From: Devosia oryzisoli
Lineage (GTDB): Bacteria; Pseudomonadota; Alphaproteobacteria; Rhizobiales; Devosiaceae
Length of the DNA stretch: 64,000 nucleotides
Direction: 5' to 3'
Assembly (NCBI RefSeq): GCF_014837245.1
Contig: NZ_JACYFU010000001.1
Location: 744,001-808,000, forward strand
Part shown: piece by piece, positions 57,886-64,000 of the stretch
How the letters are laid out: every line of letters begins with the position of its first letter
How positions within the stretch are numbered: position 1 is the stretch's first letter
The notes under the pieces: model-generated
Seen by the model: the letters and a program-made list of their open reading frames with translations, nothing else
What the model was told of the DNA's origin: nothing
The model's database searches: none
Translations under genes and position numbers: made by a program

Positions 57886-59268
57886 TTACAACCCGAGGGA
57901 CTTGATCTTGCGGTGAAGAGCGCTTCGCTCCATCCCGACAAATTCCGCGGTCTTCGAGATGTTGCCTCCGAAACGCTCGATCTGGGCGAGGAGATACTGC
58001 CGTTCAAAGACCTCACGGGCCTCGCGCAAAGGCAGGCTCATCAGATGAGCCGAGGCATCGGTATCCCCGACGGTGGGCAGCACTTCACCGATGTCGGAGG
58101 GCAACATGGCCGCTGTGATTATGCCGTTATCTGGTTGCTGATCCTTCATCAGGATGAGCAGACGCTCGATGGAGTTGCGAAGCTGCCTGGCGTTCCCAGG
58201 CCAGTCCTGGGCCTGCAGGACAGCCATGGCATCGTCGCCGACCGTCATGCGCTGCAGGTTGTGCATCCGGCAGAGTTGCTCGATGAACAGGCCGACCAGC
58301 GGCGGCACGTCTTCCCGGCGTTCTCGTAGCGGAGTAATCGGTAGCGGCACGATCGACAGACGATGGAACAAATCAGAGCGGAACTCGCCGGCATCCACCT
58401 GACCCGCCACGTTTTGAGAGCTGGACGAGATCACCCGCACGTCGATGGGAACCGCCTGAGTACCGCCAACTCGAGTGAAGCGATTCTCCACCAGTGTGCG
58501 CAGAAGCGATGCCTGCACCTGCGCCGGCAACGTCGTCACTTCCGACAGATACAGCGTGCCGCCATGGGCGCGCTCTAGTGCACCCACTTCTATGTTGAGC
58601 ATGCCCGTTTTCTCGCGCGTCTCGCGGCCGAACAGCACCACAGGCACTTCGTCTGGAGCGTAAAGCGACGCGTTAATCTCGACGAAAGTGGCATTGGCGC
58701 GGGGACTGCGCTGGTGGATTTGTCGTGCCACCAATCCCTTGCCGGCGCCCGATGGACCGGAGATGAAAATGCGAGAATTGGTGGGGGCCGACTTCTCGAT
58801 CAGACTTCGAACTTGGTGGAGGGCAGGTGACGTGCCGACAAGTTCTGCGCTCTTGCTGGCCGTTCGCTCCTTAAGCTCGGCCACTTCCGTTCGCAGACGC
58901 GTCGCCTCCATCGCGCGCTGCGTGATGTGCAACAGGCGGTCGATTTTGAACGGCTTTTCAATGTAGTCATAAGCGCCCCGCCGGATAGCCGAAACCGCGG
59001 TTTCCACATTGCCATGGCCAGAGATCATCACCACGGGCATGTCCGGGTGCTGGCTTTGAAACACATCAAGCAGCTGTAGACCGTCGAGACGTGACCCCTG
59101 CATCCAGATATCAAGGAACACCAGGCTCGGCCGCCTGCGGGCAATTTCGGCGAGGCCGCTGTCGGCGTCATGCGCCTGCCGCGTCTCATACCCTTCGTCT
59201 TCGAGAATTCCAGCAACGAGGTCCCGGATATCGTCCTCGTCGTCGATGATCAGTATGTCTAGTGCCAT
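57886..59268 (-). CDS. ntrX: Nitrogen regulator NtrX (response regulator, AAA+ and Fis-type HTH)
   Basis: Partner of the sensor NtrY in nitrogen and redox control. A receiver domain with phosphoacceptor Asp53 (VFLDIWMQG), a sigma-54-activator-like AAA+ domain with Walker A GPSGAGKGLVAR (171-182), and a Fis-type helix-turn-helix (ISKTAEFVGMERSALHRKIKSLGL). The sigma-54-contacting GAFTGA loop is missing, as usual for NtrX. The Walker B site reads GGTLYLSEV, with Ser242 where Asp is expected. Such a change may abolish ATP hydrolysis. It starts immediately after the ntrY stop. Confidence 0.95.
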   Translation of the reverse strand: MALDILIIDDEDDIRDLVAGILEDEGYETRQAHDADSGLAEIARRRPSLVFLDIWMQGSRLDGLQLLDVFQSQHPDMPVVMISGHGNVETAVSAIRRGAYDYIEKPFKIDRLLHITQRAMEATRLRTEVAELKERTASKSAELVGTSPALHQVRSLIEKSAPTNSRIFISGPSGAGKGLVARQIHQRSPRANATFVEINASLYAPDEVPVVLFGRETREKTGMLNIEVGALERAHGGTLYLSEVTTLPAQVQASLLRTLVENRFTRVGGTQAVPIDVRVISSSSQNVAGQVDAGEFRSDLFHRLSIVPLPITPLRERREDVPPLVGLFIEQLCRMHNLQRMTVGDDAMAVLQAQDWPGNARQLRNSIERLLILMKDQQPDNGIITAAMLPSDIGEVLPTVGDTDASAHLMSLPLREAREVFERQYLLAQIERFGGNISKTAEFVGMERSALHRKIKSLGL

Positions 59269-61593
59269 CTAGTGCTGAACAACCGCATTTAGATGCGGCT
59301 CCTCCGGTTGTGACGCTGCGTCGGACCCTGGTCCGTCGGAGTCGTCCGGTTTGTTCTTTGTTGGCGATGAGAGGGGGAGTGTGAAGGTCACACAGGCCCC
59401 TACCCGCCCCTGTGGATCAGGTTCGGCGTCCACGAGTTCGACGATGCCGCCATGTTGCTCGATAATGCGCGCAACGATAGCAAGCCCCAAACCCGTCCCC
59501 TTCTCCCGCGTCGTCATGTATGGCTCTAGGAGCCGCTGCCGGTTGTCCTTGGGCCAACCCTTGCCATTGTCGGACACCGCCACCCGGGCATGGTTACCCT
59601 CTATCTGCCCCTGGACGGTGATGGCCGGGTGCCAGTCGCCGCTCGTATCCAGCTCTTCGAACGCCTCGACGGCGTTCTTGATGAGGTTGGTGAGCGTCTG
59701 CGCCACGAGGCGGCTGTCGAACCACGCCCAAATCGCCTCTTCAGGCAATTCCGTTTGAATAGCAACTTCCGGCAGGCGAACGCTCTCGAGAAAAACCGCC
59801 TGTCTGATGGTGTCGCTGAGATCCGCCATTTCGGGTGCGGATTCCGGCATCCTGGCGAACGCCGAGAACTCGTCCACCATGCGTCCGATATCCCCTACCT
59901 GCCGGACGATCGTGTTGATGCACTTGTCAAAAACGTCCCGATCATCCTCGAGTTTGCTGCCATAGCGACGACGAAGCCGCTCAGCCGAGAGCTGGATCGG
60001 GGTCAGAGGATTTTTGATTTCGTGCGCGATACGGCGCGCTACGTCGGCCCAGGCGCTGGTGCGCTGCGCGGATTCAAGGTCGGTAATGTCGTCGAACGTG
60101 ATGACGTAGCCCTTGGACTCCGTGATCGTGCCCTCCCGGGTCAACTGCACCTGGTAGATGCGGCGATTGGTTTCGTTGCCGAGCTGGATCTGGTCACGCA
60201 CCTGGCCGCGGCGGGCTGAGCGGGCCTTCTCCATGGTGGCGGCGATTTCCGGCAGGATATCCTCCATTCGCTCGCCCATCAGCTCGATTTCCGTCTTCCC
60301 CAGCATTTCGCACGCCCGCGCGTTAACAAGCGTCACCGCCTCGAAGGGATCGAGGCCGATGATGCCTGCGGACACACCCTCCACCACCGCCTCGGTAAAC
60401 TGGCGGCGTTTCTCGTTCATCGCGTTGGCCTGCAACAGAGCTTCCCGCTGGGTCTTGAGCTGCTGCGTCATCCGATTAAATCCATTGGACAGATCGCGCA
60501 GATCGCCCCTGCCCTCCTGGACCGGCACCTGTACATCCAAATCTCCAGCGCTCACACGTCGCGAGGCGATCATGAGATTGCGGATCGGGTCAACGAAGCG
60601 GTTCGCCAAAGCGATGCCCACCCAAAGTGCGGCCAGCAATAAGACCACAGCGAGGCCAACATACATGATGGTGAACGTGATCTGAAACACGAGCCGGTTG
60701 GAAGCATATTGCCGATATTCGGTGATGTTGTCGTCAGTTAGCTGCATGTATTGAAGTACTTCAGCATCGACAGGTCGCGCAACGAACAGGAAAGTGTCGT
60801 CGTAGCCTCGCAGCTTAACGACGGAACCGACCAAGTTGGTACTCCCAGGCGCGATTGCAGTTGGTACGCCCTCAACTACGCCCTGTGTTATTCCTGCAGG
60901 AAGTTTGGGATAGGCGCCGGCGACGTTGATCTGAGCTCTGAGGATCGTCTTTCCGTCACGATCGATCAGCGACGTAAAGGGAAGCGATCGCGTAACCGCT
61001 AGCGCTGTCAGCACGCGGGTGAAGCGGTCGGGATCATTCACATAAGTATCGTGCGCCTGCTCGAGCTCGGTGGCTACCCAGATGATATCATCTCTCAGGA
61101 CCTGAGCATGCTCGAGCATATATGAGCGCGCCACAAGGCGGGAACTTTCCACCATGGCCCGGGTTCGCTCAGAGAACCACTGATCCAGCCCCTGGTTCAG
61201 CGCCACTGTGGCAACGACCGCGACCAGGGCCGCAGGAACGGCCGCCACGAAGGCAAACATGGCAACCATTCGTAGTTGAAGGCCGGAACCGGGCTGCCGT
61301 CGCATCCTCGCCTGCATCAGGAGCACGGCTTCCGTGACGACAAGGGCAAAAACCAGCAGCACCAGTACGCCGGTTACAATCCAGATGATCGTCCAAACGC
61401 CCGTCGATGGCTCGATCTTTGTCGTTCCGGTTAGTATCAGGAACGAAATCGACGACATCAGAACCGACGCCAACACCACCACGAAACCGAGGATGCGCAA
61501 CGAGCGGTTGGCGTGAACACCCCACGAACGGCGCCGCTGCGGCACCGGCGCGTTTTCTGGTGGTGCAGTCGGTTTGGCGGCCAGATCGGTCAT
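59269..61593 (-). CDS. ntrY: Nitrogen-regulation sensor histidine kinase NtrY
   Basis: Membrane sensor kinase of the NtrYX pair. Four hydrophobic segments lie in the first ~330 residues around a periplasmic region, followed by a HAMP linker (RRVSAGDLDVQVPVQEGRGDLRDLSNGFN), a PAS domain (ITFDDITDLESAQRTSAW near its end), the phosphorylated-His box [25 protein letters not shown] and a HATPase_c domain ending TREKGTGLGLAIVARIIEQHGG. At 774 residues it is normal. It is joined to ntrX without a gap; 172 bp separate it from ntrC. Confidence 0.95.
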   Translation of the reverse strand: MTDLAAKPTAPPENAPVPQRRRSWGVHANRSLRILGFVVVLASVLMSSISFLILTGTTKIEPSTGVWTIIWIVTGVLVLLVFALVVTEAVLLMQARMRRQPGSGLQLRMVAMFAFVAAVPAALVAVVATVALNQGLDQWFSERTRAMVESSRLVARSYMLEHAQVLRDDIIWVATELEQAHDTYVNDPDRFTRVLTALAVTRSLPFTSLIDRDGKTILRAQINVAGAYPKLPAGITQGVVEGVPTAIAPGSTNLVGSVVKLRGYDDTFLFVARPVDAEVLQYMQLTDDNITEYRQYASNRLVFQITFTIMYVGLAVVLLLAALWVGIALANRFVDPIRNLMIASRRVSAGDLDVQVPVQEGRGDLRDLSNGFNRMTQQLKTQREALLQANAMNEKRRQFTEAVVEGVSAGIIGLDPFEAVTLVNARACEMLGKTEIELMGERMEDILPEIAATMEKARSARRGQVRDQIQLGNETNRRIYQVQLTREGTITESKGYVITFDDITDLESAQRTSAWADVARRIAHEIKNPLTPIQLSAERLRRRYGSKLEDDRDVFDKCINTIVRQVGDIGRMVDEFSAFARMPESAPEMADLSDTIRQAVFLESVRLPEVAIQTELPEEAIWAWFDSRLVAQTLTNLIKNAVEAFEELDTSGDWHPAITVQGQIEGNHARVAVSDNGKGWPKDNRQRLLEPYMTTREKGTGLGLAIVARIIEQHGGIVELVDAEPDPQGRVGACVTFTLPLSSPTKNKPDDSDGPGSDAASQPEEPHLNAVVQH

Positions 61594-61657
61594 GCAGTCC
61601 TTATCATTTCGAGGCGACTATCAGCCCCGCGCCAGAGGGGCTCTCCCTTCTGTCGTT

Positions 61658-61696
61658 CGAAATCAGGGCGTAAAGCAAAAAGCCTGACCGATTTCG
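61658..61696 (-). repeat. Hairpin in the ntrC-ntrY gap
   Basis: CGAAATC at 61658-61664 pairs with GATTTCG at 61690-61696, with an inner AGG/CCT extension and a bulge. It lies in the 172-bp gap between ntrC and ntrY. The leftward loop contains CTTTTTGCTTT, but the stem is not followed by T, so it may be an attenuator or RNA-processing site, and transcription into ntrY probably continues. Confidence 0.35.
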
Positions 61697-61765
61697 CGCC
61701 ACCCTTCAAGATAAATGTTGCCGAAATGTGACACTAGGGCATAGGGCCTCTAGACGACCACAGCA

Positions 61766-63214
61766 CTAATTGCCTCGGCGGCTGTGTTTGATGATCTCAA
61801 TGCTGTGCGTACGGATTTTTTTCCGCAGCGTATTTCTGTTGAGCCCAAGCAGGTCTGCAGCCTTGATCTGATTGCCGCCACAAGCGTTCAGGGCCATGGC
61901 GATCAGTGGCGCCTCCACGCGGTCGATGACCCGCTGATATAGCCCCGGAGGCGGCAGATTGGGTTCATGTTCCCGCAGGACCTGGCTTACATGCGTCTCG
62001 ACCGCTGTCGACACATCGACGGGTCCAGTTGGACCGTTGGGGGTTGAACGCTCCGTCAGGTTCAGCTCGTTCTGCACGATTTCGGGCGAGATCTGCTCGT
62101 CGGCATAAAGGGCTGACAGGCGGCGCACGAGGTTTTCGAGTTCGCGCACGTTACCCGGCCACGAATAGTCCTGCATGATGCGGATGGCCTCGGGCGCGAT
62201 GGTCTTGACCGGCTCTCCATCCCGCTGGGCTGCTCGGAGGAAATGCAGAGCCAGGTCCGCAATGTCGTCGACACGTTCGCGCAAGGGCGGCAGACGGATC
62301 GGCACCACGTTCAGGCGGTAGTAGAGGTCTTCCCGGAATAGACCCTGACGGATCATCTGTCCTAGATCGCGATGGGTGGCTGCAACAATGCGCACGTTGG
62401 TCTTTATGGCGCTGCGACCGCCGACCATTGTGTACTCGCCTTCCTGCAGCACGCGCAGCAAGCGGGTCTGCGCATCCATCGGCATATCGCCGATTTCATC
62501 GAGGAAGAGCGTTCCGCCTTCCGCCTGCTCGAAACGCCCGGATGATCGCGTGTTGGCGCCGGTAAAGGCGCCTTTCTCATGTCCAAATAGTTCAGCCTCA
62601 ATCAGGTCGCGGGGAATAGCCGCCATGTTGATCGCGACAAAAGGGCCGTTTCTACGCTTCCCGAAATCGTGTAGCGCCCGGGCGACGAGTTCCTTGCCGG
62701 TCCCGCTCTCGCCGGTGATCATCACCGTCAGATCCGTCTGCATCAGCCGAGCGAGGGCGCGGTAGATATCCTGCATGGCCGCCGAGCGACCCACCAGCGG
62801 CATTGTCTCGCCTGCCTCGTCCACAGATCGCTGAGGCGCGGACGGCTTCTTCGCGTCGGCCAAGGCGCGGGCCACGACGGAGAGCACCTCGGTTATGTCG
62901 AAGGGCTTGGGGAGATACTCGTATGCCCCGACCTCGGACGCCCGGATGGCGGTCATGAACGTATTCTGCGCACTCATGACCACCATCGGCAGGTCCGGGC
63001 GCAGTTTCTTGATCTTGGGCATTACCTCGAAGGCATTGCCATCCGGCATCGTCACGTCCGTGATCAGGATGTCTCCCTCACCCCGGCTTACCCAATTCCA
63101 CATGGTTGACATATTGCCGGTCGGTCGGACCTCATAGCCGGCCCGCGTCAGCGCCTGATTGAGGACCATGCGGATTGCCGCGTCATCGTCGGCCAGAAGA
63201 ACAACGTGACTCAT
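61766..63214 (-). CDS. ntrC: Nitrogen assimilation response regulator NtrC
   Basis: Sigma-54-dependent activator of nitrogen assimilation genes. Receiver domain with phosphoacceptor Asp in [14 protein letters not shown]+ domain with Walker [17 protein letters not shown], the sigma-54-contacting loop [14 protein letters not shown], Walker [14 protein letters not shown] and arginine finger region [16 protein letters not shown]-terminal Fis-type HTH ([22 protein letters not shown]) ends it. I start at the ATG at 63214, which overlaps the ntrB stop by 4 bp, giving 482 residues. All motifs missing or altered in the neighbouring NtrX are intact here. Confidence 0.97.
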
Positions 63215-64000
63215 CGAGCCGAACCCTCTCGTATGGTCTGTGCGGGAGTGTGAAAGGCCTCGCTGGCCACCGGAAGAAGTATGCGGAACCGCGTGCGCCC
63301 GGGGCGGCTCTCGCAATCGATTACGCCACCGTGGTCGCCGATGATCTTGGCCACCAGGGCAAGGCCGAGACCCGATCCGTTCGTCTTGGTGGTGACGAAC
63401 GGATCGAACAGGAACGGCAAGGTGTCGGGCGGTACGCCAGGCCCATTGTCCTCGATGACGATCTCCAGAGGCAGCGAAATGCGTTCCGCTACTCCCGCGA
63501 CACTAATGCGAATGCCTGGGCGGAATGCCGTGTAAAGCTTGATCTCGGGTTTGTGCGTTCTTTCAAGAGCTTCGGAGGCGTTCTTGATCAGGTTCAGGAA
63601 CACCTGGATCAACTGATCGCGGTTGCCCAGAACCGGTGGCAGGGACGGATCATATTCTTCCGAGAAGGTGATGCCGCGAGCGACGCCATTGCGTGCCAGA
63701 AGTTTCACGCGATCGAGGATGACATGGATGTTGATAGGCTCCCGCTCCACCGGCCGCTCGTCTCCGAACACTTCGACCCGGTCGATCAGGCCAACAATGC
63801 GGTCGGTTTCGTCCCGAATAAGCCGCGCAAGGGGGACTTCGTCGGATGGAACAGACTGCTCAAGCAGTTGCGCCGCGCCGCGAATGCCTGAGAGCGGGTT
63901 CTTGATCTCATGCGCCAGCATTGCGGCAAGCCCAGTGACAGAGCGTGCCGCGCCGCGAGAGACCATCTGGCGGTCAATCTTGTCCGACATGGTCCGCTCC
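63211..64000 (-). CDS. ntrB: Nitrogen regulation sensor kinase NtrB, C-terminal part (gene runs past the window)
   Basis: Histidine kinase/phosphatase for NtrC, controlled by PII. The visible part holds the His box [24 protein letters not shown], the N box [15 protein letters not shown], and the G boxes EDNGPGVP and [23 protein letters not shown]. An ATG lies at 63990, but the frame stays open to 64000 (ERT before it), and the family has a PAS domain of over 100 residues before the His box. So the gene almost certainly starts outside the window. It overlaps ntrC by 4 bp. Confidence 0.95.

Follow-up and report, generated by a model that had tools for sequence, protein, structure and literature searches.

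NtrX of Devosiaceae lacks two acidic residues of its AAA+ ATP site and may work without Mg-ATP hydrolysis

The window, by which we mean the whole stretch of 64,000 nucleotides analysed here, carries on its minus strand the gene order ntrB-ntrC-ntrY-ntrX-hfq, read from open reading frames of which ntrB, ntrY and hfq were named by eye. This order is typical for an NtrX locus. In a scan of named genomes the closest were Devosia species, at most 91% identical, followed by Pelagibacterium (76-78%), Maritalea (68%) and Cucumibacter (67%), all as best-segment identities; Devosia is placed in the Devosiaceae of the Hyphomicrobiales. The features discussed below are these.

57886..59268, minus strand: ntrX, a response regulator of 460 amino acids (REC, AAA+, lid and Fis-type HTH); open reading frame with an ATG start, matched by NCBIfam NF051870 and by Pfam PF00072, PF00158, PF25601 and PF02954
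59110..59112, minus strand: Asp53 of NtrX, the conserved receiver phosphorylation site, named as such for Sinorhizobium meliloti NtrX (PMC9223101, in part)
58735..58758, minus strand: Walker A of NtrX, GPSGAGKG, with Gly178 (58735-58737) where an acidic residue is expected after the lysine
58582..58635, minus strand: L1 stretch of NtrX, LFGRETREKTGMLNIEVG, without GAFTGA; two strands (residues 215-218 and 224-227) in the predicted model
58540..58563, minus strand: Walker B of NtrX, GGTLYLSE, with Ser242 (58543-58545) for Asp and with Glu243 retained
58360..58380, minus strand: region of Arg297 and Arg303 of NtrX, both retained, which we take, from alignment with NtrC, to be the arginine fingers
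57889..58041, minus strand: Fis-type HTH region of NtrX (residues 410-460), from a domain match; lowest dN/dS of the three domains
59269..61593, minus strand: ntrY, gene of the cognate sensor kinase, adjoining ntrX upstream; assigned by position and by kinase motifs seen by eye
61766..63316, minus strand: ntrC, an intact bEBP that serves as in-operon control (TIGR01818, 674 bits against 558.6)

The product of ntrX scores 647.5 bits with the NtrX family NF051870, whose cut-off is 600. A profile search with the ntrY product matched kinase families, all below their cut-offs, and the true start of ntrC is probably further in, giving a protein of 482 amino acids. Among the properties expected of a sigma54-dependent AAA+ enhancer-binding protein (bEBP), NtrX of the window has the AAA+ fold with the Walker A lysine, the arginine fingers and the sensor II arginine, but it lacks the Walker B Asp-Glu pair (it has Ser-Glu), an acid directly following the Walker A lysine (it has Gly178) and GAFTGA, in whose place it has REKTGM. 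An earlier note, made from the DNA of the window, had already pointed out that the GAFTGA loop is missing. This is what is expected of the family, since the motif is found in none of the 256 NtrX proteins read (88 from Devosiaceae and 168 others). Two NtrX-like proteins (L296 and L297, from G217 and G242) have nearly the whole L1 stretch missing from the alignment, and the NtrC of one member of the Rhizobiales (L332, G059) has GSFTGA for GAFTGA.

Codons 236-244 of ntrX, GGC GGC ACG CTG TAT CTG TCG GAA GTG, encode GGTLYLSEV, with TCG for Ser242, while the NtrC of the window has GGTLFLDEI, exactly as the earlier note had described. Counting that of the window, 48 genomes of the genus were read, and every one has the serine, encoded by TCG (23), TCC (17), TCT (5), TCA (2) or AGT (1). 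Such use of five codons is not compatible with chance or with one misread base, and the claim that TCG does not arise from a single-base artefact is thereby upheld. The earlier note would have given up its case if re-sequencing had returned Asp; relatives have the serine too, and there is no sign of misreading. A sequencing or assembly error, an oddity of one genome or a pseudogene was thus rejected as an explanation, given the five serine codons across the genus, the open frame and a dN/dS far below 1, and we give it practically no credence. In two genomes of the genus NtrX seems to be cut or frameshifted, which may reflect assembly faults: in one (G025, L047) the NtrX match stops at residue 416, and in the other (G094) there is an in-frame TGA.

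Ser242 is indeed unusual for an NtrX, as had been claimed, but it is not a property of one protein. A match to NtrX was found in 132 of 136 genomes of the family (four had none), and 88 of the 132 were read, 48 from the window's genus and 40 from 15 other genera. In these 88 sequences from 16 genera residue 242 is Ser in 77, Ala in 8, Gly in 2 and Cys in 1, and it is never Asp. Of 168 other alphaproteobacterial NtrX proteins, distinct sequences that were sampled unevenly and with a heavy share of Rhizobiaceae, 158 have Asp at this position. An alignment of NtrX from the Hyphomicrobiales, which the earlier note had proposed as a check, gives Asp in 22, Glu in 1 and Ser in 1 for 24 further families, each represented by a single genome. 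The residue is Asp in 95 of 103 genomes of different genera of the class; the scan took in 133 genomes, 29 of which gave no match above the threshold used, and the counts cover 103. A set of 80 named loci was divided by score alone into 39 from Devosiaceae and 41 others, the latter mostly titled as Rhizobiales genera. Asp is present in all 41, whereas the 39 have Ser (37), Cys (1) or Gly (1); these 39 were kept apart from the 88, as several are from the same genomes.

The earlier note saw Ser242 alone. A second loss accompanies it in all 88 Devosiaceae. Residue 178, which follows the Walker A lysine, is Gly in 81 of them, Ala in 4 and Ser in 3, acidic in none, and Glu in 161 of the 168 others. 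All 88 Devosiaceae lack both acids, whereas only 2 of the 168 others do (L299 and L302). In P-loop NTPases generally, the Thr or Ser after the lysine and the Asp of Walker B surround Mg2+. bEBPs have Asp or Glu at the position where other P-loop proteins have that Thr or Ser (PMC7175178, in part). From its place in the P-loop, Glu178 of an ordinary NtrX would lie near Mg2+. Ser242 is one half of a loss of two residues that every Devosiaceae sequence read has undergone, on top of the lack of GAFTGA in NtrX.

Most of the remainder of the ATP site is kept. Among the 168 others, 61 AAA+ sites reach a conservation of 90% or more, and Devosiaceae have changed six of them (178, 209, 242, 201, 306 and 312), compared to 1 of 42 such sites in REC and 1 of 30 in HTH. 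Three of the six, 178, 209 (Glu in the others) and 242, are retained in none of the 88 Devosiaceae. Kept among the 88 are Lys177 (88), Glu243 (87, with one Asp), Arg297 (88), Arg303 (88), Arg361 (86) and Asn199 (85). Asp53 is present in all 88 and in 166 of the 168 others, the remaining two having gaps there.

Rates of evolution were compared on a fixed tree with branch lengths for each domain, as the ratio of AAA+ to REC. The larger set of 121 sequences had 50 of the 88 Devosiaceae, 63 of 65 other Rhizobiales and 8 of the 103 class sequences, leaving out L070 (partial) and L071 (divergent). Here the ratio is 15.1 on the stem of the family, 2.95 inside and 1.27 outside; stem ratios are imprecise, as REC has so little branch length there (0.04-0.08). 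Devosiaceae NtrX proteins form one clade in a free tree. For clades with at least four tips and enough change, the ratio is 2.81-3.89 in 15 within Devosiaceae and 1.01-1.75 in 15 outside, the clades being nested and not independent. HTH has no such speed-up in the same set (HTH/REC 0.63 inside, 0.81 outside). NtrX was then matched with NtrC in 37 genomes (36 of 40 fetched, since in four the fetched stretch had no NtrC, plus the window), with L1 and gappy columns removed. For NtrX the ratio is 7.39 on the stem, 2.94 inside and 1.36 outside; for NtrC it is 1.25, 2.09 and 1.65. The inside/outside quotient is 2.16 for NtrX (1.61-2.90 in 30 site bootstraps) and 1.27 for NtrC (0.91-1.68), and the two ranges just overlap, at 1.61 and 1.68. 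Relative to REC, the AAA+ domain of NtrX has sped up both on the stem of the family and inside it, an effect that is slight in NtrC from these genomes. The idea that bEBP AAA+ domains have loosened generally in Devosiaceae was rejected, because NtrC of the same family keeps its motifs: GESGTGKE and GAFTGA in all 20 Devosiaceae genomes fetched, and the Walker B Asp-Glu pair in all 37 of the matched set. Loss of sigma54 was rejected as well. The genome of the window has rpoN, and it has six further strong PF00158 loci besides NtrC and NtrX.

For pairs of Devosia genomes dN/dS is 0.070 in AAA+, 0.014 in REC and 0.004 in HTH (usable for 54, 50 and 40 respectively of 60 pairs drawn at random, with dS about 1.2 and so near saturation). 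The AAA+ domain of NtrX in this family is looser, yet it is still constrained by purifying selection. The receiver and HTH domains are strongly conserved.

Outside Devosiaceae, Asp242 is absent from 10 of the 168 proteins, being replaced by Glu (1) and Ser (1) in the order and by Asn (3), Glu (2), Lys (1), Arg (1) and Ser (1) in the class. Seven of the eight class losses are in genomes of at most 1.7 Mb (20 of the 103 are of that size), and one is among the other 83, by a hand count of sizes. Walker B acids were lost independently in L071 (G039, 1.4 Mb), L302 (G288, 1.0 Mb) and L299 (G248, 1.1 Mb), which have LYISNI, LYISSM and LFLNEI respectively. Other changed Walker B motifs are LFIDQV in L054 (G048), LFIEEV in L051 (G054), LFLDHV in L223, LFIDHV in L283 and LLLDNV in L268. 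The glutamate at the catalytic position is changed in 10 of 168 proteins outside Devosiaceae and in 1 of 88 inside.

Losses that fall mostly in reduced genomes resemble decay. If the same were true of Devosiaceae, the AAA+ domain would be only a structural spacer or dimer module that binds no nucleotide, with its ATP site decaying under relaxed constraint. The roughly twofold faster evolution of AAA+ relative to REC inside the family and the variation of residue 242 among Ser, Ala, Gly and Cys would be in line with this. What such decay does not account for is that Lys177, Glu243, Arg297, Arg303 and Arg361 are each kept in 86 to 88 of 88 sequences, nor that the dN/dS of AAA+ is tighter than free decay would leave. 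We regard this explanation as rather unlikely.

The model predicted for NtrX (mean pLDDT 85.9, pTM 0.57) has its best solved matches in Brucella NtrX, 5m7o, 5m7p (with ADP) and 5m7n (with ATP), at Z 36.0-34.7. The rmsd of 10.2-11.1 over 428-436 residues is large, meaning that the domains match while their placement differs. AAA+ domains such as that of FleQ match the model with an rmsd of 1.5-2.0 over 245-250 residues. The PDB titles among the fold matches include 5exx (FleQ with c-di-GMP) and 7v2b (VpsR, c-di-GMP binding), and such relatives raise the idea that the pocket has been re-purposed for another ligand, for instance a cyclic dinucleotide. A change of use would fit the serine of all 48 genus members read, encoded in five ways, and the long stem branch of AAA+. 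On the other hand, any bEBP would match the folds of FleQ and VpsR, and residue 242 is not fixed across Devosiaceae, which leaves the idea improbable.

In Brucella, CAA-N3-5-TTG has been reported as the site of NtrX in front of ntrY (PMC9223101, in part). This pattern is present in the ntrC-ntrY gap of 17 of 19 Devosiaceae loci, with 26 sites (overlaps counted) compared to 2.5 in shuffles and, scaled to the same length, 5.3 elsewhere in the loci. The window's own gap (61594-61765, 172 bp) has no CAA-N3-5-TTG site. Permuted half-sites are also raised in the Devosiaceae gaps (ACA 4 vs 0.8, AAC 4 vs 1.8, AAG 6 vs 2.1), these controls being present in 3 to 5 of the 19 loci. In 16 gaps of other Rhizobiales there are 10 CAA sites vs 4.6, and the control ACA is higher, at 13 vs 1.6. 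The evidence that these are operators of Devosiaceae NtrX is thus mixed. The enriched ACA-N3-5-TGT in the other Rhizobiales (13 vs 1.6 per equal length) is perhaps the site of another regulator. Four loci of the order that have no NtrC were left out of the comparison, as was L310 (G114) with its gap of 2773 bp. An insertion, rearrangement or frameshift in L310 is suggested by this gap of about 2.8 kb, which measures 0.14-0.42 kb in the remaining 19 loci of Devosiaceae, and by an NtrC open frame of no more than 413 amino acids.

The earlier note suggested that this NtrX binds DNA as a plain phospho-switch without ATP hydrolysis. The loss of the Walker B Asp does argue against hydrolysis; "plain" is too strong a word because the nucleotide site hardly varies at its other positions. 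Nor need Ser242 be the cause, since GAFTGA is missing from all NtrX proteins read and since NtrX of Brucella, which has the Asp, is reported to bind ATP and not to hydrolyse it. The note had also accepted that it would be contradicted by ATPase-active NtrX proteins with Ser; in the text covered by literature searches nobody describes assaying an NtrX for ATPase, and no NtrX of demonstrated activity was found for comparison. A search for Devosia with NtrX gave matches with neither word in title or abstract, and the available parts of PMC5892882, PMC7240162, PMC9409073, PMC7264223 and PMC2745333 hold nothing on residues 178 or 242 of NtrX.

Could slow ATP turnover persist, with Glu243 or water replacing Asp242 and Glu178? 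The retention of Glu243 and of the arginine fingers would agree with it, and these are the very residues that speak against our preferred reading, as a protein without ATP chemistry need not keep them. But two acidic residues are gone, and even the Asp-bearing NtrX of Brucella reportedly lacks ATPase activity. In addition, Caulobacter with D235A, a change of the Walker B Asp, in its only copy of NtrC fails to grow in defined medium (PMC10274813, in part). Slow turnover therefore seems to us highly improbable. The same NtrC cautions against a shortcut: it has no GAFTGA, and both of its Walker motifs are needed in vivo (PMC10274813, in part), so the absence of GAFTGA does not by itself imply that ATP is idle.

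The reading that we prefer, with a probability of about 0.62, is that in this ortholog of NtrX the AAA+ domain has lost Mg-ATP hydrolysis and has been kept as a dimer scaffold or as a Mg-free nucleotide pocket. The loss would be most simply placed in the ancestor of Devosiaceae. Glu178 and Asp242, expected around Mg2+, have given way to small residues without charge, and the lysine that contacts phosphate, the glutamate of the catalytic position, the arginine fingers and the sensor II arginine have stayed. With Asp53 and the HTH conserved, a DNA-binding role switched by phosphorylation is the simplest reading: NtrY would phosphorylate Asp53, and this would alter DNA binding of the NtrX dimer at promoters other than those of sigma54, perhaps including ntrY's own. 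The AAA+ domain would meanwhile hold the dimer together or bind ATP or ADP without Mg2+. That Devosiaceae NtrX does not hydrolyse Mg-ATP is our inference from the sequence data.

A bolder suggestion, which we offer tentatively as possible though not probable, is that NtrX throughout the family is a "magnesium-blind" AAA+ regulator for which a Mg-free nucleotide, e.g. ADP or another, is an allosteric ligand and not a fuel. Selection would then have removed the two acidic residues of the Mg2+ site and kept those that bind phosphate and those that act between subunits, leaving a protein that senses, or is locked by, the Mg-free nucleotide.

The NtrX of Devosiaceae is not a new system. It is a natural experiment on the role of the conserved ATP site in an NtrX without GAFTGA. 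No member read has kept the acids of the presumed Mg2+ site, whether its genome is of ordinary or of smaller size, while the phosphorylation site, the DNA-binding domain and operator-like sites remain. A comparison of Devosia NtrX with an Asp-bearing one, such as that of Sinorhizobium meliloti, would tell if nucleotide binding matters for NtrX signalling.

Of known systems, NtrX of Brucella abortus (5m7n with ATP, 5m7p with ADP, 5m7o with no ligand in its title) belongs to the same family, has the same domains, lacks GAFTGA too and is about 60% identical; it differs in retaining GKE and LYLDEV and in an L1 that is four residues shorter. NtrC of Rhodobacter capsulatus is likewise an NtrC-family regulator without GAFTGA, and it acts with sigma70; in contrast to NtrX of the window it has a deletion in L1. 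It is reported to need ATP binding and not hydrolysis, and VspR of Vibrio cholerae is reported to need no ATP (PMC10274813, in part). TyrR, DhaR and HupR are reported to be sigma70-dependent, and VpsR has similar changes of GAFTGA (PMC3162934, in part). VspR, TyrR, DhaR, HupR and VpsR are all bEBP relatives that left sigma54, though they belong to families other than NtrX. Engineered losses of a Walker B acid that impair hydrolysis are PspF E108Q, with less than 1% of wild-type hydrolysis (PMC4132715, in part), and NtrC1 E239A, a named Walker B mutant (PMC7175178, in part). In both the catalytic Glu was changed, whereas in Devosiaceae the preceding Asp was changed naturally and the Glu is kept in every member read but one, which has Asp. 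In the series of ATP need that VspR and the NtrC proteins of R. capsulatus and Caulobacter form, Devosiaceae NtrX would sit near the VspR or the R. capsulatus end.
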